Source of the DNA: an uncultured Sphingobium sp.
GTDB taxonomy: Bacteria > Pseudomonadota > Alphaproteobacteria > Sphingomonadales > Sphingomonadaceae
NCBI GenBank assembly: GCA_946479185.1
Contig: CAMLFF010000067.1
Coordinates: 1-11,725 of the forward strand
Direction of reading: 5' to 3'
DNA length: 11,725 bases
The notes beneath the pieces were generated by a model. The model saw only the letters and a list, made by a program, of their open reading frames with translations, searched no databases and was not told where the DNA came from. Both the position numbers and the translations under genes were made by a program. The first letter of the stretch is position 1. Each line of letters starts with the position of its first letter. Shown piece by piece: positions 1 to 11,725 of this stretch.

Positions 1-63
1 TGCCTTCGCCAGAATCCGGGCTGGGAAGCGACGCGCGGCGGTTTGAGGCAGGACAAGTTATGA
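1..63 (+). other. Possible 3' end of an upstream gene (undecided frame)
   Basis: The 59 bases before the permease hold no start of their own. Two open frames enter from the left edge. One ends at the TGA of 61-63, giving an ATGA overlap with the permease start and a tail ending GGLRQDKL. The other ends at the TGA of 44-46 with a basic tail (RIRAGKRRAAV), followed by the permease ribosome binding site. Either could be the end of an upstream gene. The fragment is too short to name a product, and it may also be non-coding. Confidence 0.25.
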
Positions 64-1262
64 CAGAGCAGGAAGTGGGCGCGCCTAAAACCGCTCGCGC
101 CGAGTTTGCGCGCGGTTGGTCGATCGTGCTGACGGCGGCATTCGGTGTGGGCCTCGGTGTGTCTGGCCTGCTTACCTATAATTCGGGCCTGTTCGCGCCC
201 GCGCTGGCGCAGGAAATCGGGCTCACTCGCACCACCTTTGGCGCGGTTTTCTTCGGCTCGACGATTTGCATGGCGCTGGCGATGCCCATCGTGGGCCTGC
301 TCGTCGACAGGTTCGGCCCCAAATATATGGCAGCGCTTGGCTCGCTGATGCTGTCCTTGGGCTTTCTTGCGCTCTCGCAGGTGCAGTCCGTGCTCGCCTA
401 CGCCGCTGTGATGCTGCTCATCGGCTTGCTGACCGGTTCCTCAACGCCGGTGCCCTATACCCGCGCTGTTTCTGCGGCCTTCAATCGCGCCCGTGGACTG
501 GGGCTGGGCTTCACCCAGGTTGGCATTGGTCTGGCAGCCGCGCTGGTGCCGCCATTGATCGCGCTGCTTATTGCACAGCAGGGCTGGCGTGCGGGCTTCC
601 TCGCGCTGGCGGCGTTGGCGGCGGTCGGCATGCTGCCAGCCTTGCTCGGCCTGCCCGGCAAATCCACAGCAACCGGCGCTGCGGCGAGCGATGGCTACCC
701 AGCGGTGCGCCGCTCGCGCCTCTATCGCCTGCAATTCGCTGCTTTTTGCGCGATGGCCTTCGCCTTTGCAGGTTTGCTGCCGCACTTCGTTCCTATGCTA
801 GTGGAATCGGGCATCTCGATCCAGCGGGCAGGGGCGCTGGCCGGGTTGATCGGCGCGTCCGTCATCGTCACGCGCATCATCGTGGGTTGGCTATCGGATC
901 ATATGGAGCCAGCATGGCTTGGCGCTGCAAGCTGCATGATTTGCGCCGCCGGGTGCATCACGCTCGCGCTCGGCGGGCCTGCGATGGCGCCGGTCGCTGC
1001 CATTGCGCTGGGCGCGGCAATGGGCGCTGAGGCCGACCTGATCGGTATTCTCACGGCACGCAATTTCTCGATCACCGCCTATAGCAGGGCCTATGCCGCG
1101 CAATATGGCGGGTTCAGCGTGGCGGCAGGGACAAGCCCATTATGGATGGGCAAGCTGGCGGATTTGACCGGTGGATATCAGGCAGCATTGATTTGCGCCG
1201 CTGTGCTGCTGGTTGTCCCGGCAACGCTCTTCTTGTTGATGCCGCGTTTCAGAACGGCCTGA
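60..1262 (+). CDS. MFS permease (OFA / monocarboxylate-transporter-like)
   Basis: This is a 400-residue inner-membrane transporter with about twelve hydrophobic segments, the usual length for the major facilitator superfamily. The loop between helices 2 and 3 carries a classical motif A, GLLVDRFGPK, at residues 79-88. A hydrophilic break around residues 200-220 separates the two six-helix halves. The general look (YTRAVSAAFNRARGLGLG in helix 4-5, short termini) resembles the oxalate/formate antiporter and monocarboxylate branch, but the substrate cannot be read. The start is supported by AGGA six bases upstream. The gene converges on the TonB-dependent receptor gene and may belong to an operon entering from the left. 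I infer that it imports the substrate, or a product made in the periplasm by the neighbouring exported enzymes. The superfamily is secure; the substrate is unknown. Confidence 0.9.
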   Translation: MTEQEVGAPKTARAEFARGWSIVLTAAFGVGLGVSGLLTYNSGLFAPALAQEIGLTRTTFGAVFFGSTICMALAMPIVGLLVDRFGPKYMAALGSLMLSLGFLALSQVQSVLAYAAVMLLIGLLTGSSTPVPYTRAVSAAFNRARGLGLGFTQVGIGLAAALVPPLIALLIAQQGWRAGFLALAALAAVGMLPALLGLPGKSTATGAAASDGYPAVRRSRLYRLQFAAFCAMAFAFAGLLPHFVPMLVESGISIQRAGALAGLIGASVIVTRIIVGWLSDHMEPAWLGAASCMICAAGCITLALGGPAMAPVAAIALGAAMGAEADLIGILTARNFSITAYSRAYAAQYGGFSVAAGTSPLWMGKLADLTGGYQAALICAAVLLVVPATLFLLMPRFRTA

Positions 1263-1264
1263 CC

Positions 1265-1309
1265 GGGACGGCATGCGCCGCCCCGATCGGTTGCCGGACT
1301 CGGCCTTTT
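1265..1309. terminator. Possible bidirectional terminator between convergent genes
   Basis: The 45-base gap between the permease and the receptor holds two dyads. The first is an 8-position stem at 1265-1272 / 1277-1284 with an ATGC loop and one A-C mismatch. The second is a short GCCG/CGGC stem at 1293-1296 / 1301-1304 followed by CTTTTA, which would serve the + strand. A perfect CCGATCGG palindrome lies between them at 1283-1290. Position and pairing fit a terminator for convergent transcripts. The stem by the T run is only four base pairs, so the call is weak. Confidence 0.3.
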
Positions 1310-3503
1310 AGAAGTTCACACCCACGCGAACGCCATATTCACGCGGCGTTCCGTAGAATTCGTTGATGCCGAACTGACCCGAGACATATTCCTTGTCGGT
1401 CAGGTTCCGGCCATAGGCCTCGACGCGCCACTCACCGGCTCGCAAGGTGATCAAGGCTGAGAGGAGACCCCGGCTCGGCAGGCGATCGCTGATTGGCGAG
1501 AAGCCGAGATAAGTGAATTGCGCGCCCGTATAGGAGAAGTTCACACGCGGCGTGAGCGTCATGTCGCCACCAAGATCAAACCGGTAATCCGCGCCAATAT
1601 TGTAGGTCCATTTGGGCGCAAACAGATTGGGCCTGGTTCCGGTCGTCTGGATGAAGGGATTATAATCGAAGCAGAAGGGCGGTGCTGAGTCGGTGCCGAC
1701 TGGGCATTGCGGCCCCAACGTGCCCGTTGGCAGGCCGTTCCGCGCATTGACGAAGGTCACGCTGGCCAGTTCTGAATCGATATAAGCCGCGCTCGCATCA
1801 AAGCCGAAGTTGCCAAGCTTTGCCTGAATCTGCGCTTCAATGCCCTTGATCTTGGCGGATGAGATATTGTCCACGCCGGAAAAGCCCGTGCTGGGTTCCG
1901 TAATATTGGCGTGGAAGCCCTTATAATCATTATAAAAAGCGTTGAGCTGGGTGCGGATGCGATTGTTCAGGAAGCTTGATTTCCACCCCAGCTCATAGCT
2001 CATCACCGTCTCTGGATCGAACTCGGACGTTGTGGAGTTGAAGCCGCCTGGCTTGTAGCCGCGCGCAACCAGCGCATAGACGAGATTATCCTCATTCGGC
2101 TTCCAGTTGATCGCTGCTTTACCGGTGAAGCGAGCATCTTTGTGGGAGCCAGCTAAAGGCGCGACAATGGCGCCCTCCGGTGGAAAGCCAGGAATGCCCC
2201 GCCCAATGGTGACGCTACCGGTTCCAGTGGCCTTGTAGGTCGAGTAGCGGCCGCCGAGCTGAACTTCCAACTGCTCGGAAAGCTGATAATTGCCCTGCGC
2301 GAAGAAGCCCGTGGTGGTGCGCTCATTGTCCGGGGTTATGTCCGTCGGGAAACCACCCTGATCCTCATAGATGCGGACCTTGATGTTATTGCGCTGGAAA
2401 TAGGCGCCCAAAATCCAGTCGAACGCGCCATCCGTGGGCGAGATGATGTTGATTTCCTGGCTATATTGCCGCTCGCCCGCAAAATAATCCTGGCTGATGT
2501 CACCGCCCGCAGTCAGCGGGGCTTGCGACGCATCAACGTCATAGAGATTTTTGATGCGCTTATTCTGGTAGCCGGAGAGCGAGCGGATCGTGATCCCGTT
2601 TGCCAGTTCCTGCCGCAGTTCCAGGCTGGCCATGAAGGCGAGATCGCGATTGCCGGTTTCCTCGTCAAAGCTAAGCGTCCGGATGTCGCCGACGCGGAAG
2701 GGCGCAAAGGTTGTGCCGGGGATTGGCCGATAGGCATAGCCGCCGGTGTCCCGATCGTTAAACTGCACCTTTGCGATCGCCTGGAAGCTGCCGGGCTGCC
2801 AAAGCGCTGTGATGCGACCGCCAAATTCCTCAAGCTTGCCCGCATCATTATCGAACGGGCCAACATCATTATAATAGCTGTCGTTGCGGCGATAAAAGCC
2901 CGCGGCGCGCAAGCCAAAGTCGGCAGAAACCGGCAGGTTCAACGCCGCTTCCGTAGCGACCGTGTTGAAGTTGCCATAGGAGAGGTCGGCATAGCCACCC
3001 AGGCCAGCATTCAGATCCGGGTTGCGCGAATTGATGAAGATCGCGCCGCCGGTCGAGTTGCTGCCGACGAGCGTGCCTTGCGGACCGCGCAGCACTTCCA
3101 CGCTGGCAAGATCGTAAAAGCTGTTGGCCTGCACGATGGGCGGCTGGAACAGACCATCGACATAGGTCGCGACGCCCGCAGTCACATTGGGCGAGTCACT
3201 GGCAAGGCCGATGCCGCGAATGTTGACCGTCTGCACGATGCCGCCATTGCTGATCGTGAGGGCAGGGGCGGCGGTCTGCAAATCAGCCAGGTTGGTCACA
3301 GAATTCTTCGCGAGCGCCGCACTATCGAGCGCGGTGGCGGATATCGCGACATTCTGCAGGCGCTCGGTGCGCCGCTGGGCGGTGACGACGATGTCGGCCA
3401 GCCCTTCCTCGGCTTGCGCTCCGGCCACATCCTGCGCGGCAGCAGGTGTGGCAAGGCCGTAAACAAGCGCGCCCAAAGACACCGCTTTCAGAAATCCCCT
3501 CAT
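1308..3503 (-). CDS. TonB-dependent outer-membrane receptor
   Basis: The 731-residue protein is an outer-membrane gated channel that imports a substrate using TonB energy. It has a Sec signal peptide with likely cleavage after AAA (residue 23), a TonB-box/plug beginning ADIVVTAQRR at residues 36-45, a plug domain containing NIRGIGL, then a long beta-barrel rich in aromatic strands and ending in phenylalanine (GVRVGVNF), as expected for BAM-inserted proteins. Length is typical. The open frame extends to 3566, but that would overlap the hydrolase gene and bury the signal peptide. ATG 3503 has AGGGAG seven bases upstream; ATG 3509 is only one base from it. It lies 41 bases after the hydrolase gene and is probably co-transcribed with it. 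Sphingomonad receptors of this type mostly serve carbon-source uptake rather than iron, which fits the cluster; the ligand is unknown. Confidence 0.93.
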   Translation of the reverse strand: MRGFLKAVSLGALVYGLATPAAAQDVAGAQAEEGLADIVVTAQRRTERLQNVAISATALDSAALAKNSVTNLADLQTAAPALTISNGGIVQTVNIRGIGLASDSPNVTAGVATYVDGLFQPPIVQANSFYDLASVEVLRGPQGTLVGSNSTGGAIFINSRNPDLNAGLGGYADLSYGNFNTVATEAALNLPVSADFGLRAAGFYRRNDSYYNDVGPFDNDAGKLEEFGGRITALWQPGSFQAIAKVQFNDRDTGGYAYRPIPGTTFAPFRVGDIRTLSFDEETGNRDLAFMASLELRQELANGITIRSLSGYQNKRIKNLYDVDASQAPLTAGGDISQDYFAGERQYSQEINIISPTDGAFDWILGAYFQRNNIKVRIYEDQGGFPTDITPDNERTTTGFFAQGNYQLSEQLEVQLGGRYSTYKATGTGSVTIGRGIPGFPPEGAIVAPLAGSHKDARFTGKAAINWKPNEDNLVYALVARGYKPGGFNSTTSEFDPETVMSYELGWKSSFLNNRIRTQLNAFYNDYKGFHANITEPSTGFSGVDNISSAKIKGIEAQIQAKLGNFGFDASAAYIDSELASVTFVNARNGLPTGTLGPQCPVGTDSAPPFCFDYNPFIQTTGTRPNLFAPKWTYNIGADYRFDLGGDMTLTPRVNFSYTGAQFTYLGFSPISDRLPSRGLLSALITLRAGEWRVEAYGRNLTDKEYVSGQFGINEFYGTPREYGVRVGVNF

Positions 3504-3510
3504 TCTCATT

Positions 3511-3516
3511 CTCCCT
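3511..3516 (-). promoter_or_regulatory. Ribosome binding site deciding the receptor start
   Basis: On the minus strand AGGGAG stands seven bases before ATG 3503 and one base before ATG 3509. This favours 3503 and leaves the N-terminus as MRGFLKAV, directly a signal peptide. Confidence 0.65.
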
Positions 3517-3544
3517 GATATTTTATGGTTGTCGTTTATGATTT

Positions 3545-4774
3545 TCAGCGTGGCTTCCAGGCGCATGCGGCCGCCAGAAAAGCCGATGTCTCAGCGGATT
3601 CGCGATCACCGGGGCCGGGCGGGAAGTAGCTGAGCTTAACCACCACGGTGCGCGTCAGCGGATCGACGAAGACATATTGCCCCTGCAGTCCGATGGCCGA
3701 ATAAGCAGGCGCATTGGGCATCGTCCACCACTGGAAACCATAGCCGCCGGATGCGTCTTCCGTCGCTGCAGGCGCCGTGGACGTCTCGACCCAATCGCGC
3801 GAAACGATCTGATGGCCATTGGCGGTGCCCTTGTTCATCATCATCAGGCCAAAGCGCGCCCAATCGCGCAGTGTTGCGTTGAACCCGGCGCCGCTAAACT
3901 CGCGGCCTACGCCCGGCGCACCATCCATGATGTAGAAGGCATCGGACTCAGTCCCGAGCGGCTCCCAGAGCGTTTGCGCCGTGTAAGCGGCGACGCTGGT
4001 GCCAGTGACCCGCTCGATGAGCCAGCCCAGCACGGCGGTATCCAGCGTCTTATACTGGAAGACCTTGCCCGGCTCATGAAGGCGTTTGATCGTGCGCGCG
4101 GCATCGGCAAAGCGCGCGACATTCTTCACCAGCGCATTGATATGGTTCGTTGCTGCTGTGCCGGGATTGGCGAAGTCGTAGCGCTCCTCATAGTCCACGC
4201 CCGAGCGCATCTGGAGGATGTGGCGAACCGAGGTGCCATCATAGCCGCCGCCCTTGAGCTCCGGCAGATAATTGGTGATCGGGTCGTCCAGCGATTTGAT
4301 CCGCCCCTCTTCCAGCGCGCGACCGACAAGCACGGAGGTGACTGACTTGGTCATCGACCAGCCCATGAAGCGGGTACGATCATTGCTGTTGTTGCGATAA
4401 ATTTCGCTGACGATCTTGCCGTCCTTCATCACCAGCAGGGCATTGGTGTAGGTGCGCTCAAGGAACTGCTGCGCCGAATAGCTCTTTCCCTCGAAGTCAT
4501 AATTGAAATCGAGCGCATGATCGGCGCGGGGCAGCACCGCAACGCTGCCTGCGCGCGCCACTGTGCGCGTGGTGAACAGCGTATCCATGCTGCGAAACGC
4601 GAGCGAACTGACATTGTTATCGAGCATATGCCAGCGCAGGGTTTGGATCGCGACGGGCACCTCCGATGGCGCACCGCTGACCAATTGCGGGGGCAAAACC
4701 TGCTGCGCGGATGCCGGGGCAGCGCTCATGGCAAGGCCAAAGGCCAGCGCGCATAGTCTAAATTGAACTGCCAT
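3545..4774 (-). CDS. Exported SxxK serine hydrolase (beta-lactamase / NylB-like superfamily)
   Basis: The 409-residue protein belongs to the penicillin-recognising serine hydrolases that include class C beta-lactamases, EstB-type esterases and 6-aminohexanoate-dimer hydrolase. Visible features are a signal peptide cut after ASA (residue 23), the nucleophile motif S140-M-T-K143 in GWSMTKS, and a Y241-K-T triad in the place of the usual Y-x-N/Y-S-x, followed by DTAVLGWLIERVTG. A C-terminal GLQGQYVFVDP (about 362-372) replaces the KTG strand, as in the esterase/amidase branch. The start at 4774 has GAGGTGAGG nine bases upstream; the longer frame to 4864 adds 30 basic residues before the signal peptide and begins inside a palindrome. 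It probably hydrolyses an ester or amide in the periplasm. It lies between regulator and receptor genes, which suggests its substrate comes through that receptor. It is unlikely to be a true beta-lactamase; the substrate is unknown. Confidence 0.85.
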   Translation of the reverse strand: MAVQFRLCALAFGLAMSAAPASAQQVLPPQLVSGAPSEVPVAIQTLRWHMLDNNVSSLAFRSMDTLFTTRTVARAGSVAVLPRADHALDFNYDFEGKSYSAQQFLERTYTNALLVMKDGKIVSEIYRNNSNDRTRFMGWSMTKSVTSVLVGRALEEGRIKSLDDPITNYLPELKGGGYDGTSVRHILQMRSGVDYEERYDFANPGTAATNHINALVKNVARFADAARTIKRLHEPGKVFQYKTLDTAVLGWLIERVTGTSVAAYTAQTLWEPLGTESDAFYIMDGAPGVGREFSGAGFNATLRDWARFGLMMMNKGTANGHQIVSRDWVETSTAPAATEDASGGYGFQWWTMPNAPAYSAIGLQGQYVFVDPLTRTVVVKLSYFPPGPGDRESAETSAFLAAACAWKPR

Positions 4775-4840
4775 TCTTCCAATCCTCACCTCGAATGAGC
4801 GAACTTTGAACGTCACTCTACAGCGGTGATGGTGGGGCAG

Positions 4841-4881
4841 GAGGCGCGCGGGCGCATCTCCCATATGGGATAGGGCGCCTC
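4841..4881. repeat. Nested inverted repeat between regulator and hydrolase genes
   Basis: A perfect 12-base palindrome TCCCATATGGGA (4859-4870) is enclosed by GAGGCGC (4841-4847) and GCGCCTC (4875-4881); an alternative outer arm is GGCGC at 4851-4855. It sits directly after the regulator stop codon and about 70 bases before the hydrolase start. It could be an operator or a processing/terminator hairpin. No U run follows on the minus strand, so a classical intrinsic terminator is unlikely. Confidence 0.5.
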
Positions 4882-6008
4882 TAGGCCTGCGTGAGCGAGG
4901 CTACAGCGGAACTGCAAAGCTTGCGCACAAGTTCCGCTTGCCGGCCCGATGCAGTTTTGGCCAGCACCTGCTTGAGCTGAATGCGCGCGGTGCCAAGCGA
5001 AATACCGCGCCGCTCGGCAAAATCGGCCAGCGTCTCGCCCGTTGCTATGGCCCCGGCAAGGCGCGCCTCGGCGGGGGTGAGGGAGAAGAGCGAGGCGACA
5101 TCGGCAGCATCGAAGTGCGGCACGTCGGCTGAGTGGGACAGGAAAAGCGCGATCTGGGCATCAGCGCGCCAGGCGCGATCAGTTTGAGCCGGATCGATAC
5201 GCGTAATGCGGATGTGAACGAGATCATCGGCATTGTCACCGAGCGCGAGCGTTGCGCTTGGCTGATCCCCACGCGCCACCGCGGCTGCGAGGGTCCGCAA
5301 TCGGCCGCTTGCCGCCGGGCTGCCGCACCATAATTGGCCATGGGCAAGGCTCAGCGTAGTGGATGTCTCGATCATCTTGCCTGCCGCGCGGTTATACCAG
5401 TCCACGTCGAGATCGGCACCGCATAGGATGAGGCCGGTGCGCACCTTGTCGAGCACCGCCTCAAAATTGTTGCTGCGCCTTTCCAGCTCAGAAAATCCGC
5501 GATTGAGTTGAACACTCTGCTTGAGGTGCGGCAGCAGTATGTTGAGGAACTGCTCTTCGCTCTGCTCAAGGTCTCGCCTATCATCCGTGTGGCGATGAAG
5601 CACCAGCGTGAAATGGCGCCTGTTGTTGATCGGAAACGTTGCCCAGATTGCATCGCCAAGATCGACCTGTCGCAAGCGTTGGCGCAGCACGCCGAGCATG
5701 GGGTTGGACGCACCAAACAGGCGCTGATCGCTGCTAATCTCGGTATCAACCCATGTGGTTGTGTGAAAGATCAGGCGAGGATTGTCTGGCTTGTTTACGC
5801 AGCTGTCATGAATCGCCGCCAGCGCGAGAGAGGAGGTGTCGCGGACGGTCCATTGAGCATGGCCGGTCTCAAGCTCGTCATCGAATATTTGCGCGACGGC
5901 GCTGCGCATCCCCATCACATTGCAGAGCTGGTCCAGCATCGGCGTCCAGCGCGCCTCACATTCCACCGACCCGTAAAGATCGAGCAGAAGGTGATGCGAT
6001 AGGTCCAT
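4881..6008 (-). CDS. LuxR-family transcriptional regulator with PAS-like sensor region
   Basis: The 375-residue protein ends in a LuxR-type helix-turn-helix at about residues 310-367: LTPAEARLA, then GETLADFAERRGIS, then the recognition segment GTARIQLKQVLAKT and RQAELVRKL. The long N-terminal part has no receiver domain. It shows an effector/PAS-like pattern in which a helical linker around residues 165-185 leads to a FEAVLDKVRTGLILCGADLDVDWYNRAA segment at about 182-208. This layout is common in sphingomonad one-component regulators that sense a small molecule. The start at 6008 is set by GAGAGGAGAGAG just upstream; the frame to 6056 adds sixteen charged residues without support. It is transcribed away from the flavoenzyme operon, so it is the natural candidate to control both arms through the palindromes in 6009-6250. 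Whether it activates or represses, and its ligand, cannot be told. Confidence 0.88.
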   Translation of the reverse strand: MDLSHHLLLDLYGSVECEARWTPMLDQLCNVMGMRSAVAQIFDDELETGHAQWTVRDTSSLALAAIHDSCVNKPDNPRLIFHTTTWVDTEISSDQRLFGASNPMLGVLRQRLRQVDLGDAIWATFPINNRRHFTLVLHRHTDDRRDLEQSEEQFLNILLPHLKQSVQLNRGFSELERRSNNFEAVLDKVRTGLILCGADLDVDWYNRAAGKMIETSTTLSLAHGQLWCGSPAASGRLRTLAAAVARGDQPSATLALGDNADDLVHIRITRIDPAQTDRAWRADAQIALFLSHSADVPHFDAADVASLFSLTPAEARLAGAIATGETLADFAERRGISLGTARIQLKQVLAKTASGRQAELVRKLCSSAVASLTQA

Positions 6009-6073
6009 CTCTCTCTCCTCTCGCGGCGATGCAGTTTCATCGTGCCGCAATTCCACCGTTGTAGCGCCTGATG

Positions 6074-6101
6074 ATTAAAGGTTTTGCCCGCGATTGGCCA
6101 A
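6074..6101 (-). promoter_or_regulatory. Candidate promoter of the regulator operon
   Basis: On the minus strand, TTGGCC (6096-6101) and TTTAAT (6074-6079) are separated by 16 bases. They match the sigma-70 boxes at 4 and 5 of 6 positions. Transcription would start near 6067, leaving a leader of about 60 bases before ATG 6008. The -35 box lies inside the ATTGGCCAAT palindrome. Confidence 0.4.
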
Positions 6102-6102
6102 T
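6093..6102. promoter_or_regulatory. Perfect palindrome over the regulator -35 box
   Basis: ATTGGCCAAT is a perfect 10-base palindrome coinciding with the candidate -35 element of the regulator. This is a natural place for autoregulation. No protein assignment can be made from sequence alone. Confidence 0.4.
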
Positions 6103-6108
6103 GTTTGT

Positions 6109-6122
6109 TTCACGTACGCGAA
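6109..6122. promoter_or_regulatory. Imperfect dyad centred on CGTACG
   Basis: TTCACGTACGCGAA reads as TTC-N-CGTACG-N-GAA, a 14-base dyad with one mismatched pair. It lies midway in the divergent region, a possible regulator-binding site. Confidence 0.3.
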
Positions 6123-6156
6123 CGGCGAATATATCGGTGGGCGGCGCGTTCACAGA

Positions 6157-6175
6157 TGTTGCCGCATACGCAACA
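6157..6175. promoter_or_regulatory. Inverted repeat TGTTGC-N7-GCAACA
   Basis: Two perfect 6-base arms (6157-6162 and 6170-6175) are separated by seven bases, so the arm centres lie about 13 bases apart. It stands about 20 bases upstream of the candidate -35 box of the + strand operon. This position suits an activator. Confidence 0.4.
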
Positions 6176-6194
6176 ACTGGAGGGGGCGTGGCCG

Positions 6195-6224
6195 TTGTAT
6201 TGAGGCGAGGGCTGTTTCTATAGG
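6195..6224 (+). promoter_or_regulatory. Candidate promoter of the flavoenzyme operon
   Basis: TTGTAT (6195-6200) and TATAGG (6219-6224), separated by 18 bases, match the sigma-70 boxes weakly (3 and 4 of 6). A start near 6231 would leave a leader of about 20 bases. The poor boxes would fit a promoter that needs an activator. Confidence 0.3.
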
Positions 6225-6237
6225 TTCTGGACAGAAC
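6224..6237. promoter_or_regulatory. Inverted repeat GTTCTG-GA-CAGAAC between -10 and start codon
   Basis: Two perfect 6-base arms separated by GA overlap the expected transcription start and end 13 bases before ATG 6251. The site could be a repressor operator or a small 5' hairpin next to the ribosome binding site CCGGAG. Confidence 0.45.
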
Positions 6238-6250
6238 ATCCGGAGCAATC

Positions 6251-7738
6251 ATGTCCCACTTAGCGCTTTGGTCGAGACGTCGTTTCCTGAAGGCGAGCAC
6301 ATTGGCGGTTCCGGTGGTGGCAGGGCTTGCCGGTGCGGCAGGGTTCGCTGCTCCTCTGACAGGAACCGCAGCCGCCGATTTGCAGGCGCGGATCGCTGGG
6401 ACGGTTATCGTCAAGGATGATGAAAATTACGAGGTGTGGCGCCAGGCGATGATCTGGCAGCGCGCCAAGGCAGACCGTCGCCCGGATATGATCGTGCAGG
6501 TCGAGAGCATCGAGGATGTGCAGGAAGCCGTGCGTTTCGCTGCGGCTGCGGGGATGAAGGTCGCGACGCGCTGCGGTGGCCATAGCATGGCGGCCTGCTT
6601 CTTGCGCGATCAGGGGATGCTCATCGATATCAGCCGCCTTGATGGCATTGCGGTGGATAAGGCGGCAAAGCTCGCGGTCGTCGGCCCTGGCGTGTTTTCG
6701 CGTGGCTTGGCGGAGCGACTGGCGACGGATGATCTCGCCTTTCCGGGCGCGCATTGCGGCACGGTCCCGATCAGCGGCTTTCTGCTGGGCGGCGGCGTTG
6801 GCATGAACACCAATGCCTGGTCGCAGGGCATGAGCGTATTCGCGGTCAAGGCCGTGGATGTCGTCATGGCAGACGGTCGCCTGCTGCGCGCGAGCGAGAG
6901 TGAGAATGCCGACCTCTTCTGGGCGGTGCGCGGGGGTGGGCCTGGCCTGTTCGGCGTGGTCGTGCGCTTCCACCTCCAATGCTTCGATGCGCCCAAGGTC
7001 ATTTGGGGTGCGACCTATACCTTCGCCTTCACGGAGCTGGATGCCGTCACGCGGTTGATGGATGAGATTGTCCCGCAACTCGATAAGGACGTCGAGGTGC
7101 TCTATTCGGTCGCTGCCTTGCCAGGCGTCGCTCATGATGCGCCGGTCGAGGAGCGCCAGCGCATCTATCTGGACGTCAACGCCTTTGCTGTCAGCGAAGC
7201 GGAAGGGCGGCGCAAGCTGGCACTGCTCCAGCGCGATCCGCTGATCGCCCGCGCGCTCGACAAGCTCGAGGACCGCGCGGGCAGTTTCGATCGCTATTAT
7301 AGCGATAATGAGGCTGGCTTCCCGCAGGGCTATTGGATGGGTGACAGCATCTGGACCGATCGCCCTATGGACGCGATTGCGATCCTCAAGCGGCATATTC
7401 CAGATTGCCCCGCGCCGCGTGGCACGCCGGTGGTGCTTTATATGGGCACCAACACGATGCCCGACGCAGCCTGTTCGCGGATTGGTCGCTTCTACGTGGC
7501 TTATTATCTGGAGTGGGACGAACCCGCGCAGGAAGCGGCAAGCCGCGCCTATTGCCTGAAGGTTTTCAAGCAACTCAAGGCCGTCTCAAAAGGCAGCTAC
7601 ATCAACGAGATGGATCAGGAAGGGCGGCCTGAGGACATTCATGATTGCTATTCCCCCAAGGCCTGGGCGCAACTGGCGAAGCTGCGCAAGCAATGGGATC
7701 CCAAGAGTCTGTTCCACGGATTCTACGGCCAGTCATGA
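6251..7738 (+). CDS. Tat-exported FAD-linked oxidoreductase, berberine-bridge-enzyme type
   Basis: The 495-residue protein opens with a twin-arginine signal, SRRRFLKA at residues 8-15, followed by a hydrophobic stretch to about residue 43, so it is exported folded with its cofactor. A PCMH-type FAD-binding domain follows: IVQVESIEDVQEAV, then GGHS with H111 as the probable 8-alpha-histidyl flavin site. Next is GAHCGTVPISG with C169 at the position of the 6-S-cysteinyl link, then LGGGVGMN and ADLFWAVRGGG. The C-terminus has a BBE-domain end, WAQLAKLRKQWDPKSLFHGF. Family members oxidise sugars, alkaloids and other alcohols or amines. It heads the + strand operon; GGAG lies five bases before the start. 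The next gene encodes a secreted cytochrome c, so I infer a dehydrogenase passing electrons to haem rather than an O2-using oxidase. The family is secure; the substrate is unknown. Confidence 0.9.
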   Translation: MSHLALWSRRRFLKASTLAVPVVAGLAGAAGFAAPLTGTAAADLQARIAGTVIVKDDENYEVWRQAMIWQRAKADRRPDMIVQVESIEDVQEAVRFAAAAGMKVATRCGGHSMAACFLRDQGMLIDISRLDGIAVDKAAKLAVVGPGVFSRGLAERLATDDLAFPGAHCGTVPISGFLLGGGVGMNTNAWSQGMSVFAVKAVDVVMADGRLLRASESENADLFWAVRGGGPGLFGVVVRFHLQCFDAPKVIWGATYTFAFTELDAVTRLMDEIVPQLDKDVEVLYSVAALPGVAHDAPVEERQRIYLDVNAFAVSEAEGRRKLALLQRDPLIARALDKLEDRAGSFDRYYSDNEAGFPQGYWMGDSIWTDRPMDAIAILKRHIPDCPAPRGTPVVLYMGTNTMPDAACSRIGRFYVAYYLEWDEPAQEAASRAYCLKVFKQLKAVSKGSYINEMDQEGRPEDIHDCYSPKAWAQLAKLRKQWDPKSLFHGFYGQS

Positions 7739-7788
7739 TGAAGGCCCTGATCCTCCGCACCCCTATTTTGCACCGGGAACCCGTATGA
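7738..7788 (+). other. 16-codon bridging mini-ORF
   Basis: An open frame encoding MKALILRTPILHREPV begins at the A of the flavoenzyme stop codon (TGATG) and ends in an ATGA overlap with the start of the cytochrome gene. It would let ribosomes run on from one gene to the next in the 46-base gap. It may be chance; no separate ribosome binding site is evident apart from those within the upstream coding end. Confidence 0.3.
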
Positions 7789-8894
7789 AGATGCCATCGA
7801 CCAAAGCCGGTCTGCTTGCGGCCCTGTTGCTCTTTTCAGGTGTTGCCGGTGGGAAAGCGCTGACTGCGGAAAAGACCGCCACTGATCCTGCGAGCGTCGT
7901 TCATCAATTGTACGAAGCGTTCGAGCATGGGGACATGGCGGCGCTGGAGCGGCTGATCGCAAAGGATGCGACCTGGACCTATTATGGCCCGGCCAGCCAG
8001 TTGCCCTTTGGCGGCACGCGGCATGGGCCTGCGGGCGTTGCCGATTTCTTCGCGAAGGTGGGCGAGACCCTCGACAATCCGGTGGCGACCCAGTTCGGCT
8101 ATATCGTGACGGGCGACACCGTGGCCGTGCCCGGCACGGAAGAGAGCACCGTTCGCGCCACTGGCATCCGCTACAAGGCGGATCTGGTCCATGTCTTCAA
8201 GGTTCGGGACGGCAAGATCGTCAGCTTTGAGGAATTTATCGATAGCGGCAAGGTTCTGCTGGCCTTTCAGGGCGATAAGAGCGTCGATGTTTCGGCGGGC
8301 AAAGCGGCGGCGAGCGCTGCTCCTGGCTTGAAGCAACTGGTCGATAAGAGCGCGGGCAAGGCCATCTTCACCACTTGCGCAGGGTGTCATGGCAATGACG
8401 GCCAGGGGCTCGACTATATGTATGCGCCGAACCTGACCGGGCAGGATTCCGATTATCTGGTCCGCCAGCTCACCAACTTCCGCGAGGGCAAGCGCGGCAG
8501 GATGGATGATGCGCACGGCTTCCCGATGGTTGGCCGCGCGACAGCTATTCCCGGTGCCGATGGCGTGAAGGCGGTCGTCACCTACATCGCTGGATTGCCC
8601 AAGCTTGCCGCTACCCCTGTGGCCAGCCGCACAGTGCCCACTGCGATTGCCGACATCCTCCCGACCTGCGCGACCTGCCACGGAGCCAATGGCGAGGGAA
8701 ATGCCGATATGCAGGCGCCAGCGCTCAACCGGCTCGATCGCACCTACATCGCTCAGCAGCTGGTCAACTTCCGGACAGGCAAGCGCGGTTACCATGCGGA
8801 CGACGCTCCGGGCGCTTTGATGGCGGCATCAATGCCTGAAACCCTGGGTCCGGATGCGATTGCGGCGCTCGCAAAACATTATGGCCGTGACTGA
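7785..8894 (+). CDS. Secreted SnoaL/NTF2-like domain fused to two cytochrome c domains
   Basis: The 369-residue protein has an N-terminal signal peptide (MKMPSTKAGLLAALLLFSG, likely cut before about residue 28). A SnoaL/NTF2-like domain follows at about residues 34-162: VVHQLYEAFEHGD, HGPAGVADFFAKV, then VHVFKVRDGKIVSFEEF. Two c-type haem domains come next, with CAGCH at 198-202 and CATCH at 295-299. Each haem motif is followed by an NLTGQ/ALNRL segment and an xQLxNFRxGKRG segment, so they are tandem copies like cytochrome c4. Probable axial methionines are M248 and M346 or M350. Export is needed for haem attachment, so it works in the periplasm. It follows the Tat flavoenzyme and is likely its electron acceptor; the SnoaL part could dock the enzyme or act on its product. 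The frame opens at 7641, inside the flavoenzyme gene, but ATG 7785 alone begins a signal peptide. The fusion is unusual. Confidence 0.88.
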   Translation: MKMPSTKAGLLAALLLFSGVAGGKALTAEKTATDPASVVHQLYEAFEHGDMAALERLIAKDATWTYYGPASQLPFGGTRHGPAGVADFFAKVGETLDNPVATQFGYIVTGDTVAVPGTEESTVRATGIRYKADLVHVFKVRDGKIVSFEEFIDSGKVLLAFQGDKSVDVSAGKAAASAAPGLKQLVDKSAGKAIFTTCAGCHGNDGQGLDYMYAPNLTGQDSDYLVRQLTNFREGKRGRMDDAHGFPMVGRATAIPGADGVKAVVTYIAGLPKLAATPVASRTVPTAIADILPTCATCHGANGEGNADMQAPALNRLDRTYIAQQLVNFRTGKRGYHADDAPGALMAASMPETLGPDAIAALAKHYGRD

Positions 8895-8902
8895 ACGGAT
8901 TT

Positions 8903-8924
8903 GAGGAGGGCGCAGAGCGCTCCC
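8903..8924 (+). promoter_or_regulatory. Strong Shine-Dalgarno-like GAGGAGGG folded into a hairpin, without a nearby start
   Basis: GAGGAGGG at 8903-8910 has no start codon within 5-12 bases. Its 3' half pairs with GCGCTC (8908-8913 with 8917-8922, one G-T pair, AGA loop). It may be a small intercistronic hairpin or a relic of a lost start. Confidence 0.3.
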
Positions 8925-8933
8925 AACCAGACA

Positions 8934-8993
8934 ATGAACAACGACAAAAACCGGCCGCACAAGCGCGGCACTGACGCTGGAATGAAAAGATGA
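8934..8993 (+). other. 19-codon mini-ORF overlapping the next start by ATGA
   Basis: A basic, polar frame (MNNDKNRPHKRG..., 19 residues) ends in an ATGA overlap with ATG 8990. It could couple translation to the next gene, since the gap after the cytochrome gene is 95 bases. GAGGAGGG lies too far upstream (about 23 bases) to be a normal ribosome binding site unless the hairpin between shortens the distance. It could be chance. Confidence 0.25.
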
Positions 8994-10141
8994 CGGGGAC
9001 TATGACGACTTCAACGCGGATCGACTTCCTTTACTTGTCCGAGGAAGACATGATCCGGGCCGGTGTGACCGACATGGCCGCCTGCGTGGACACGATGGAG
9101 GAGATGTTCGCACTCCTTTATCATGGCGATTACCGGATGGCCGGGCCGAGCAATAATTCGCATGGCTCGGTCGTGGTGTTTCCTGAGGATTCGCCGTTTC
9201 CAGATATGCCCAAGCCCACCCCAGATCGCCGGTTCATGGCGATGCCTGCCTATCTTGGCGGGCGCTTCAAGACGGCTGGCATGAAATGGTATGGCTCGAA
9301 CATCGCCAATCGGGAGAAGGGCCTGCCGCGCTCGATCCTGACGTTTGTGCTCAACGATGCCGATACGGGCGCGCCGCTGGCCTTCATGTCGGCCAATCTC
9401 CTCTCGGCCTATCGCACGGGCGCGGTTCCGGGCGTGGGCGCGCGGCACCTTGCCCGCAAGGATTCCAAAGTGGTCGGCATTCTCGGCCCGGGCGTCATGG
9501 CGCGGACATCGCTCGCCGCATTCATGGCGGTGTGCCCGCTGATCGGCACGGTGAAGGTAAAGGGGCGTGGGGCTGATAGTCTCGCCGCCTTCCAGACATG
9601 GATCGCGGAGACTTATCCACAGATCACCACCATCCAGATCGTCGATACGCTCGAAGAAGTCGTGCGCAACGCCGATATCGTCACCTTCTGCCAGTCGGGC
9701 GCGATTGGCGACCCATCGATCTATCCGGTGGTGAAGCGCGAATGGGTGAGCCCCGGCACTTTCCTCTCCATGCCATCGCTCACCAATATCGATGAGGGCA
9801 TGGAAGCGCCCGAGATCCGCAAGGTGCTCGATAATCCGGGTCTCTACGAGGCTTGGTATGAGGAAAATCCCAAGCCGGTGCATCGCAATGTGCCTGTCGT
9901 CGGGATCCGTTTCCTCGACCTGATCGATGAGGGCCGCATCACGCATGACCAGATCGAGGATCTGGGCAAGATCGTCGCAGGCGAAGCGCCCGGGCGCCGC
10001 GATGAGGACGAGATCATCATCATGTCCGTGGGCGGCATGCCGGTCGAGGACGTTGCCTGGGGCACGGTGGTTTACCGCAATGCCGTCGAGAAGGGCATCG
10101 GGGTAAGCCTGAATCTTTGGGACCAGCCCGCGCTGCGATAA
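8990..10141 (+). CDS. Ornithine cyclodeaminase / mu-crystallin family NAD-binding protein
   Basis: The 383-residue protein has the family layout: an N-terminal dimerisation/substrate part with GMKWYGS (K99 at the conserved lysine) and SAYRTGAVPG (R142 at the substrate-carboxylate arginine), and a Rossmann fold with GPGVMA at 166-171. Family members act as ornithine cyclodeaminases, alanine dehydrogenases, ketimine reductases or opine-forming enzymes. The aspartate needed for ornithine cyclodeamination (D228 in the Pseudomonas enzyme) falls on T265 in an ungapped local comparison from memory, so true ornithine cyclodeaminase activity is unlikely. Proteins like this, beside RidA and DAO-type oxidoreductases, are, as I recall, labelled 'tyramine oxidase subunit B' in public annotation; I cannot check this. 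No signal peptide is seen, so it is cytoplasmic. ATG 9002 is an alternative start. I infer handling of an amine or imine. Confidence 0.85.
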   Translation: MTGTMTTSTRIDFLYLSEEDMIRAGVTDMAACVDTMEEMFALLYHGDYRMAGPSNNSHGSVVVFPEDSPFPDMPKPTPDRRFMAMPAYLGGRFKTAGMKWYGSNIANREKGLPRSILTFVLNDADTGAPLAFMSANLLSAYRTGAVPGVGARHLARKDSKVVGILGPGVMARTSLAAFMAVCPLIGTVKVKGRGADSLAAFQTWIAETYPQITTIQIVDTLEEVVRNADIVTFCQSGAIGDPSIYPVVKREWVSPGTFLSMPSLTNIDEGMEAPEIRKVLDNPGLYEAWYEENPKPVHRNVPVVGIRFLDLIDEGRITHDQIEDLGKIVAGEAPGRRDEDEIIIMSVGGMPVEDVAWGTVVYRNAVEKGIGVSLNLWDQPALR

Positions 10142-10169
10142 TTCGCCGCCATTCCCTGCACGCTTTTTT

Positions 10170-10175
10170 AGGAGG
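10170..10175 (+). promoter_or_regulatory. Very strong ribosome binding site of the RidA gene
   Basis: AGGAGG, six bases before ATG 10182, is the best Shine-Dalgarno match in the operon. High relative expression of the small RidA-like protein would fit. The T run just before it (10164-10169) lacks a hairpin and is not a terminator. Confidence 0.75.
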
Positions 10176-10181
10176 TCAACC

Positions 10182-10604
10182 ATGACCGATATCGTCAAAG
10201 TCAAAACCGGCTCTCCTGCAGAGGAGCGCGGCGCTTATTCACGGTTGATCGCCGTCGATAATCTCATCTTCGTGTCCAACACGGCTGGCCGCAATCCGCG
10301 CACCAAGCTGATCCCGGAAGATCCCGCCGAGCAGACGTTGCAAGTCCTCGCCAACATCGATGCCGCTCTGGCTGCGGTTGGATCGTCGATCGACGATGTC
10401 ATTGCGGCGCGTGTGTTCGTCCAGTTCCCGCAGGATATCGATGCGGTGATGGGCGCCTATGCTGACAAGATGCGCGGCATCAATCCGACCCTGACACTGA
10501 CGAGCCCACCACTTGGCATGCCCGAGTTCAAGGTGGAGATTGAAGTGACCGCCTATCGCGGCGCTGCCAAGGCGAATGTCCAAGAAATCACGATCACCCT
10601 CTGA
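10182..10604 (+). CDS. RidA-family (YjgF/YER057c/UK114) protein lacking the catalytic arginine
   Basis: The 140-residue cytoplasmic protein has the fold signature of the Rid family: GAYSRLIAVDNLIFVSNTAG, EDPAEQTLQVLANIDAAL, DDVIAARVFV, and KVEIEVTAYRG near the end. Archetypal RidA trimers hydrolyse reactive enamines and imines made by PLP enzymes or FAD oxidases. They need an arginine (R105 of the E. coli protein) in a P-x-R motif. Here the matching segment is N-P-T-L at 101-104; an ungapped comparison back from KVEIE places L104 at the arginine. It thus belongs to the Rid groups without this residue, whose roles are less clear. The gene lies 40 bases after the OCD-like gene and 30 before a DAO-type oxidoreductase gene. 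This suggests work on an unstable imine or a structural role in an oxidase complex. Confidence 0.9.
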   Translation: MTDIVKVKTGSPAEERGAYSRLIAVDNLIFVSNTAGRNPRTKLIPEDPAEQTLQVLANIDAALAAVGSSIDDVIAARVFVQFPQDIDAVMGAYADKMRGINPTLTLTSPPLGMPEFKVEIEVTAYRGAAKANVQEITITL

Positions 10605-10634
10605 CGGCAAAGAGGACCAACAAAGGTAGATATA

Positions 10635-11725
10635 GTGGCTCCAACGATCACTCCGGTAGAGACTTCCGACCGCCATCCCGATGCGACGACGGTGGTGGTG
10701 ATCGGCGGGGGCATCGTTGGCCTGATGGCTGCGCTGACCCTCGCCGAGCGCGGCGTTCCCGTGGTGCTGCTGGAGAAGGGCCGGATTGCGGGCGAGCAAT
10801 CATCGCGCAATCTCGGCTGGATCCGCAAGATGGGCCGCGAGGCGCATGATCTGCCCCTCGCTATGGCATCCGAGCGCTTATGGTCCGCGATGCCGGAGCG
10901 GGTTGGAGCCGATGTGGGCTACCGGCAGGCTGGCATCATGTACCTATGCCGTTCTGATGCCGAGATGGCGGGACATCGCGCCTGGCTGGATGCGATCAGC
11001 GACGCGGGGCTCGACTCCCGGCTGCTCGCGCCTGCGGACATCGACCGGCTGGTGCCCGGTGGAACCGGCGGCTGGGCAGGGGGCATCTACACGCCATCCG
11101 ATGGACGCGCAGAGCCTCTGCTGGCATCAAGCGCGATCGCCACTGCTGCGATGGCGAAGGGTGCGGTCATCCTCGAGCAATGCGCGGTGCGTGGCCTCTC
11201 GATGACGGCAGGTCGGGTGAGTGGCGTGATGACCGAGCTTGGCGAAATTCGCTGTGAGCATGTCATTTTGGCAGGCGGCATGTGGTCGCGACGCTTCCTC
11301 GCCAATCTCGATGTGATGTTGCCGACGCTGCCGCTGGTGGCATCGGTCGTGCGCACCGCGCCCATGGATGGCCCAAGCGACATTGCCGTGGGCGCGCCGG
11401 ACTTCTCCTTCCGCAAGCGGATCGATGGTGGCTATACGATCACGCAACGGGGCGCCTTCGCCGCGCCATTGGTGCTCGATAGCCTGCTGCTTGGCCGCCG
11501 CTATTTGCCCATGTTGCGCGCGCAGTGGAAGAATGTGCGGCTGTCGCTGGGCCGTGACCTTGTCGACGATCTTGCTATGCCGCGCCGCTGGGCGGCCGAT
11601 GGGGCATCGCCATTTGAGCATGTGCGCACGATCGATCCGCAGGTGAATGAAGGGCTCAATGCCGAGGCGATGCGCAATCTTGCCGCGGCCTGGCTGGTGT
11701 TCCGCGATGCCGTGGTCGCCGAGAC
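10635..11725 (+). CDS. DAO-type FAD-dependent oxidoreductase (partial, runs off the right edge)
   Basis: An open frame begins at GTG 10635, preceded by AAAGG eight bases upstream, and is still open after 363 codons at the window end. The N-terminus carries a dinucleotide-binding fold, VVVIGGGIVGLMAALTLAERG, with GxGxxG at residues 24-29 and the ribose-binding glutamate E47. SSRNLGWIRKMGR at about 56-68 follows, as in glycine/D-amino-acid oxidase-like (DadA/SoxB) proteins that take amines or amino acids. A second FAD-contact segment, HVILAGGMWSR, lies near residues 209-219. No signal peptide is seen, so it acts in the cytoplasm. Perhaps 60-100 residues are missing. With the OCD-like and RidA-like proteins it probably forms an amine or amino-acid oxidising unit. 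No in-frame ATG lies upstream of the nucleotide-binding motif, which supports the GTG start. The family is secure; the substrate is unknown. Confidence 0.87.
   Translation, partial: MAPTITPVETSDRHPDATTVVVIGGGIVGLMAALTLAERGVPVVLLEKGRIAGEQSSRNLGWIRKMGREAHDLPLAMASERLWSAMPERVGADVGYRQAGIMYLCRSDAEMAGHRAWLDAISDAGLDSRLLAPADIDRLVPGGTGGWAGGIYTPSDGRAEPLLASSAIATAAMAKGAVILEQCAVRGLSMTAGRVSGVMTELGEIRCEHVILAGGMWSRRFLANLDVMLPTLPLVASVVRTAPMDGPSDIAVGAPDFSFRKRIDGGYTITQRGAFAAPLVLDSLLLGRRYLPMLRAQWKNVRLSLGRDLVDDLAMPRRWAADGASPFEHVRTIDPQVNEGLNAEAMRNLAAAWLVFRDAVVAE

Follow-up and report, generated by a model that had tools for sequence, protein, structure and literature searches.

A rare SnoaL-cytochrome c4 fusion encoded beside a putatively exported flavoenzyme in sphingomonads, and its possible role as electron acceptor

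RESULTS

The stretch of DNA analyzed here, called the window, comprises positions 1 to 11,725 (11,725 nucleotides) of contig CAMLFF010000067.1 from an uncultured Sphingobium sp. (assembly GCA_946479185.1). It carries a gene for a SnoaL-type domain joined to a dihaem cytochrome c4, placed right after the gene of a FAD enzyme that we designate FADox. An earlier note on this DNA had proposed that a SnoaL-type N-terminal domain and two haem c domains share one polypeptide, and this was confirmed by NTF2-like profiles and folds together with the CxxCH sites; SnoaL and dihaem c4 in a single chain is a genuine fusion. The SnoaL_2 profile matched the N-terminal domain at 63.7 bits against a cut-off of 27, comparison with solved structures assigned that domain to the NTF2-like fold, and residues 1 to 31 had a predicted local distance difference test score (pLDDT) below 50 in the structure model. 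The parts of the fusion are as follows.

7785..8894, + strand: SnoaL-dihaem c4 fusion protein, 369 aa (domain profiles, model and fold matches)
7785..7883, + strand: apparent N-terminal export signal region, residues 1-33 (hydrophobic stretch GLLAALLLFSGVAG, by eye)
7884..8279, + strand: SnoaL/NTF2-like domain, residues ~34-165
8280..8336, + strand: linker region, residues 166-184 (model residues 173-187 with pLDDT <50)
8337..8891, + strand: dihaem cytochrome c4 domain, residues 185-369 (c4 two-domain fold found)
8376..8390, + strand: haem 1 motif CAGCH, residues 198-202 (C, C and H invariant in 50/50 aligned fusions)
8526..8528, + strand: Met248, expected axial ligand of haem 1 by homology (invariant in 50/50)
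8667..8681, + strand: haem 2 motif CATCH, residues 295-299 (C, C and H invariant in 50/50 fusions)
8820..8822, + strand: Met346, expected axial ligand of haem 2 by homology (invariant in 50/50)

The solved structures closest to FADox are EncM (E 2.8e-39) and 6-hydroxy-D-nicotine oxidase (E 9.2e-30). The C-terminal BBE domain PF08031 gave no Pfam match in FADox at E 1e-3, and the EncM alignment extends to residue 489. The enzyme begins with an apparent signal of the twin-arginine translocation (Tat) type and carries the residues expected for a two-bond flavin attachment, the Cys for the second bond being present in 97/100 relatives.

6251..7738, + strand: FADox, FAD enzyme of the VAO/BBE superfamily, 495 aa, upstream of the fusion (FAD_binding_4, PF01565, E 2.2e-24)
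6275..6289, + strand: twin-arginine motif RRRFL, Tat-type signal, FADox residues 9-13 (from sequence)
6575..6586, + strand: GGHS, with His111 expected by homology to bind FAD (His in 98/100 relatives, 2 gaps)
6749..6766, + strand: AHCGTV, with Ala167 as first O2 gate (Cys-2), Cys169 as expected second FAD bond and Val172 as second gate (Cys+3)

Two O2 gates are described for this family in the accessible parts of PMC4898691 and PMC4513132, Gly admitting and Ala denying O2 at one, Val admitting and Leu blocking it at the other. Among the 100 closest of the 120 listed FADox matches, the first gate is Ala in 96, Thr in 3, Ser in 1 and Gly in 0; in the other 20 it is Gly in 13, Ala in 5, Glu in 1 and a gap in 1. 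An oxidase reading from Val at Cys+3 alone was dropped once the Cys-2 gate, known from the available portion of PMC4898691, was seen to be Ala. The gates disagree, the first closed by Ala and the second open with Val, and we go no further than calling FADox probably a dehydrogenase. A side product of the FADox search, P0253 (313 aa), joins an FAD-binding piece to PF01244 on a 989-base contig and is possibly an assembly artefact.

Gene order and split forms

In 5/5 primary loci the gene order is FADox, SnoaL-c4, OCD (ornithine cyclodeaminase/mu-crystallin family), Rid and DAO (a flavoprotein resembling amino-acid oxidases), and second copies are present in the same five genomes. Directly upstream of 5/5 second copies lies a FADox homologue, 43-46% identical. 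One of them (L058) has SnoaL fused to c4, and the other four (L059, L060, L061 and L062) have adjacent genes, SnoaL then c4, so that separate genes occur in 4/10 inspected copies, a form that the earlier note had not foreseen. The 20 kb surrounding the second copies gave no match to OCD, Rid or DAO, and the conserved unit is therefore FADox, SnoaL and c4. At L062, for which profiles were run, a GMC oxidoreductase is encoded downstream and an aldehyde dehydrogenase upstream.

Across the five genomes, 10/10 copies inspected have a VAO/BBE-superfamily FAD enzyme with a twin-arginine start directly upstream and a c-type cytochrome gene beside that flavoenzyme; a simple pattern also finds the twin Arg in 80/87 full-length relatives of FADox. 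The flavoenzyme that the earlier note had placed just upstream thus recurs, and contig linkage extends it, as at least 19/51 fusion clusters have exactly the same longest-contig size as a FADox match and share a source with it (a lower bound, meaning the same contig, not necessarily adjacent genes). For this linkage, 55 of the 120 listed FADox rows (338 matches in all) were entered, P0205, P0212 and P0216 because their match had already been seen; 20/51 clusters matched, and P0002 was dropped for having no common source, sources being compared by eye.

A separate SnoaL gene was also observed ~6-10 kb from the fusion in 5/5 genomes (L071:16602-17066, G003:C30:29586, G004:C28:213069, G005:C106:45784 and G002:C34:128802). 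It shows 38-39% identity to the fused domain in L068, L069 and L071, the three with an open reading frame (ORF) called, and no signal in the two copies read; in L071 it is adjoined by a second, different NTF2-like-looking protein.

Export signals and cytochromes of FADox relatives

A hydrophobic N-terminal stretch above a simple score was found in 48/51 fusions, and two of the other three lack the stretch or are short at the start; from these hydrophobic starts, SnoaL is expected to be periplasmic in the fused proteins. The split c4 proteins begin, by eye, with a lipoprotein-like signal. In L059-L062, the split SnoaL proteins apparently have no signal peptide ahead of the domain, both of their partners being signal-bearing. 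This call depends on reading the likely start as lying within ~10 residues of the first domain helix, and in L059 and L061, where longer SnoaL frames overlap the FADox end, the inner start was chosen. The hydrophobicity score was rejected as a signal test for split SnoaL, as the first domain helix is itself hydrophobic and the score gives no separation. A split SnoaL protein would either act inside the cell or exit bound to FADox, and such an exit would imply FADox-SnoaL binding. Tat partners without their own signal are known, by what is called the "hitchhiker" route in the accessible text of PMC10924467.

We also compared 16 FADox homologues, a small and related sample in which the grouping was made afterwards and some of the signal and cytochrome calls were made by eye. 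It comprises 10 plus 3 FADox genome places, from searches that scored the best few candidates per genome and so may have missed some, and 3 of 4 plasmid loci (12 rows listed of 333 records), plasmid locus L098 being dropped because its gene is broken. A c-type cytochrome gene lies within the stretch examined for each of the 8 homologues that show a twin-arginine start, and no cytochrome c was recognised in the stretches examined around the 8 lacking such a start. Four of the exported cases have SnoaL and c4 (two fused, two split); L084 has a monohaem cytochrome directly downstream (Cytochrom_C, E 3.7e-11), and L083 a divergent monohaem cytochrome next door, called by eye without a profile. Cytochrome filters varied within the comparison, single CxxCH motifs in ORFs of L097 and L100 were judged not to be cytochromes, and almost nothing upstream of the gene was available for L096.

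Spread and rarity

The domain-architecture check suggested by the earlier note was run and gave 51 protein clusters with SnoaL and c4 in one protein, 36 from a search of ~5.8 billion proteins and 15 from a profile search, scoring in both being limited to the 7996 candidates sharing most words. Their sources include sphingomonads, metagenomes, Flavisphingomonas, Sphingomonas, Bradyrhizobium liaoningense and a gammaproteobacterial bin. A genome-collection scan returned 37 loci, of which 32 match the cytochrome part only and five (L001-L005) are full length, in Sphingobium sp. CECT 9361, Sphingomonas formosensis, S. flavalba, Rhizorhabdus histidinilytica and Sphingomonas sp. Y57. The full-length fusion occurs in 2/396 Sphingomonadales genomes (G003 and G004, the latter being the search centre itself), and a class-wide scan of 385 genomes at E 1e-40 matched in G004 itself only; as the best few candidates were scored per genome, these tallies may miss some. 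The SnoaL-c4 fusion is conserved but rare.

In the plasmid collection, 91 records match the fusion protein, none covering >80% of it, and plasmid carriage of the fusion is thus not supported there; none of the 13 pattern matches on viral contigs is a relative of the fusion. The earlier note knew of no named family with this order, and the literature we searched agrees, holding no description of a SnoaL-cytochrome c fusion, a weak absence with most subscription journals and all preprints outside its scope. Among the side observations of these searches, P0030 (623 aa) and P0047 (633 aa, named from the SAR324 cluster) are by-catch with six consecutive c4-type CxxCH units each.

Ancestry, linker and conservation

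In the tree of SnoaL domains, 51/52 fused rows form one group, which also holds the SnoaL-only proteins P0130 and P0131 (both with their own hydrophobic N-terminus, on 1.3 kb contigs possibly cutting the gene); outside it stand the split L059-L062, two solitary SnoaL proteins and the fused P0128 on a long branch. The c4-domain tree does not reproduce this: it intersperses the split copies with fused rows and requires a minimum of 3 changes of the fused label. Both trees are midpoint-rooted only, and the L058 protein itself is absent as a row, P0120, which has the same first 45 residues, being included. Fused and split states have, as read from these sequences, interchanged, and since the two trees disagree on the placement of the split copies we claim no direction of fusion.

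The distance between the end motif of SnoaL and haem 1, measured in 47/51 clusters (P0125-P0128 were unmatched by the motif), is 21 residues in 21/21 clusters outside the window's clade and 30-50 residues in 26 clusters of that clade. A model of the short-linker Bradyrhizobium fusion reached a mean pLDDT of 92.1 and a predicted template modelling score (pTM) of 0.84, which suggests a defined arrangement of both domains, and the linker has grown longer and looser in the window's clade. Over 50/51 fusions (P0017 was left out of the alignment), mean pairwise identity is 64% for the SnoaL domain versus 51% for the c4 domain, and SnoaL identity exceeds c4 identity in 1164/1225 pairs, which are not independent. 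SnoaL residues W64, G68, P69, P74, E119 and Y130 are kept in 50/50 fusions and H136 in 48/50; we do not claim that Tyr43, Tyr66 and His136 correspond to the catalytic residues of ketosteroid isomerase. This higher conservation of SnoaL argues for specific work by that domain.

Neighbour genes and substrate

Downstream of the fusion, the window encodes three further proteins.

8990..10141, + strand: OCD, ornithine cyclodeaminase/mu-crystallin family protein (NCBIfam NF004848 "tyramine oxidase subunit B", 700.4 bits, cut-off 362)
10182..10604, + strand: Rid-family protein (Ribonuc_L-PSP, E 1.9e-19; in 5/5 primary loci)
10635..11725, + strand: DAO, flavoprotein resembling amino-acid oxidases, named by eye (open-ended ORF running off the window; homologue in 5/5 primary loci)

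The literature search found no paper testing the name "tyramine oxidase subunit B" of NF004848, and DAO had no NCBIfam match at E 1e-30. These neighbours point to amine/imine chemistry. The aldehyde dehydrogenase before FADox in L062 resembles the phenylacetaldehyde dehydrogenase StyD (624.6 bits, under the cut-off of 850), and L071 has a similar one at ~12 kb from its fused copy (518.1 bits, partial protein). Because of the aldehyde dehydrogenase and the imine-chemistry neighbours, a reasonable guess at the FADox substrate, though nothing beyond a guess, is an arylalkyl amine or alcohol.

In Sphingobium sp. CECT 9361, a second OCD-Rid-DAO set (L086:8632-11604) is present ~5 kb upstream of the operon that holds the fusion; neither FADox nor SnoaL-c4 has a match next to this set, which makes the trio a separable module. 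On the other side of FADox, window positions 60-6056 carry an MFS transporter, a TonB receptor, a beta-lactamase-fold hydrolase and a LuxR-like gene, the last a 391-aa ORF (4881-6056, - strand) whose C-terminus is LuxR-like by eye, with no Pfam or NCBIfam match at E 1e-3. In the 17 kb examined around the operon in each of L001-L005, these genes lacked a close match, 4/5 showing no more than distant TonB receptors (26-27%).

DISCUSSION

The architecture is undescribed in the literature searched. It fits best as the electron-accepting half of a periplasmic flavin dehydrogenase, to which a SnoaL part is added. We hold, with moderate confidence, that FADox and SnoaL-c4 are the two halves of one such system, in which c4 is the acceptor and SnoaL a part for docking, for conversion of the product, or for both. 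In the mechanism that we propose, FADox with covalently bound FAD would be exported folded by Tat and would oxidise a small organic substrate; as Ala would close its O2 pocket, the reduced flavin would pass electrons singly to the dihaem c4, which would forward them to the respiratory chain. SnoaL would tether the cytochrome to the flavoenzyme and, most likely, bind the oxidised product as well and convert it by isomerisation, hydration or dehydration, as its fold relatives do. The domains, fold, conserved gene order, fused and split forms and signal-like N-termini were read from sequence or model, and export, electron transfer, docking and product conversion are inferences. The position of the fusion gene right after that of the exported flavin enzyme means that the fusion probably takes the electrons of this enzyme, and it may handle the FADox product too. 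More tentatively, and with some doubt on our part, the carrier could hold the next active site: c4 would drain the flavin, SnoaL fixed at the flavoenzyme would receive and convert an unstable oxidised product, which would couple oxidation to product conversion within one complex, and the split, signal-less SnoaL would be carried across the membrane by binding to the flavoenzyme during its Tat export.

Several observations weigh against this two-half system. The second gate is the oxidase-type Val in 100/100 of the closest FADox matches, and in AtBBE-like 15 changing the second gate alone to Val raised O2 reactivity ~400-fold, AtBBE-like 13 and 15 being re-oxidised by O2 at 3 to 30 per M per s (accessible part of PMC4513132). 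The split SnoaL of L059-L062, seemingly signal-less, would be cytoplasmic unless co-exported, and two split copies have Leu in place of SnoaL Tyr66, which leaves no catalytic set common to all forms. In 2/8 exported cases (L064 and L065) the dihaem cytochrome lies ~6 kb from the flavoenzyme gene. For L095 and L096, whose first gate is Ala, neither an export signal nor a cytochrome c was found; these two cases, L095 with an alignment gap just after the Ala, ruled out Ala at Cys-2 alone as a cytochrome predictor. Finally, the structure model of the window fusion has a pTM of just 0.64.

The open second gate, together with solved superfamily relatives that include named oxidases and oxygenases, could make FADox an ordinary O2-using oxidase, SnoaL-c4 then being an unrelated respiratory carrier that shares the operon by chance. 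We regard this as quite improbable, given Ala at the first gate in 96/100 and a FADox-SnoaL-c4 trio kept in two operon settings, fused as well as split, as a chance neighbour hardly would be. The "BBE-type FAD oxidase" of the earlier note stands as an FAD enzyme of the VAO/BBE superfamily, but the word oxidase is doubtful, the first gate being of the dehydrogenase type, which would fit electron take-up by a cytochrome, and the second of the oxidase type. SnoaL could also be a docking or dimerising scaffold only, pairing two dicytochromes and holding them on FADox with no chemistry of its own. The fixed 21-residue spacing outside the window's clade and the pTM of the short-linker two-domain model would suit such a role, as would P0017 (533 aa), where a tandem pair of SnoaL domains ahead of a single c4 unit resembles a built-in pair, and a signal-less split SnoaL beside a Tat-type partner fits co-export by binding (PMC10924467, accessible text). 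However, SnoaL is more conserved than the carrier and its kept residues exceed the seeming need of a plain scaffold, and we consider this explanation unlikely.

If the periplasmic flavin dehydrogenase reading is true, a third part, an isomerase-type pocket, joins the known pairing of flavin dehydrogenase and cytochrome c, and proteins named only "FAD-binding oxidoreductase" would move to the cytochrome-linked dehydrogenases. Moreover, the natural split copies make SnoaL binding, co-export and action on the product directly testable.

To our knowledge, the cytochrome of the p-cresol methylhydroxylase/eugenol hydroxylase type has no SnoaL domain. Flavocytochrome c sulfide dehydrogenase differs from the FADox system in flavoprotein fold and substrate, and we know of no SnoaL in it. 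The solved chains listed for cytochrome c4 have 172-190 residues without SnoaL, whereas SnoaL is N-terminal to c4 here, and, as to SnoaL_2/TerC/ketosteroid-isomerase-like proteins, 0/50 of the solved chains listed as matches span SnoaL and haem parts so as to suggest the same fusion. EncM, the closest solved relative of FADox, differs, in an alignment by eye, by Gly at the first gate and by having no Cys at the second FAD-bond place. NicA2/Pnao of Pseudomonas putida S16 belong to the amine-oxidase family, not VAO/BBE, and the accessible part of PMC9396064 mentions no SnoaL; they are alike in that supposed oxidases proved to be dehydrogenases feeding an operon-encoded cytochrome c, CycN (same part of PMC9396064). 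Enzymes of the p-cresol methylhydroxylase/eugenol hydroxylase type share the VAO/PCMH superfamily with FADox and use cytochrome c instead of O2 (PMC7617285, in its available portion), whereas the carrier here, a dihaem unit of the c4 type, is either joined to SnoaL or encoded next to it.
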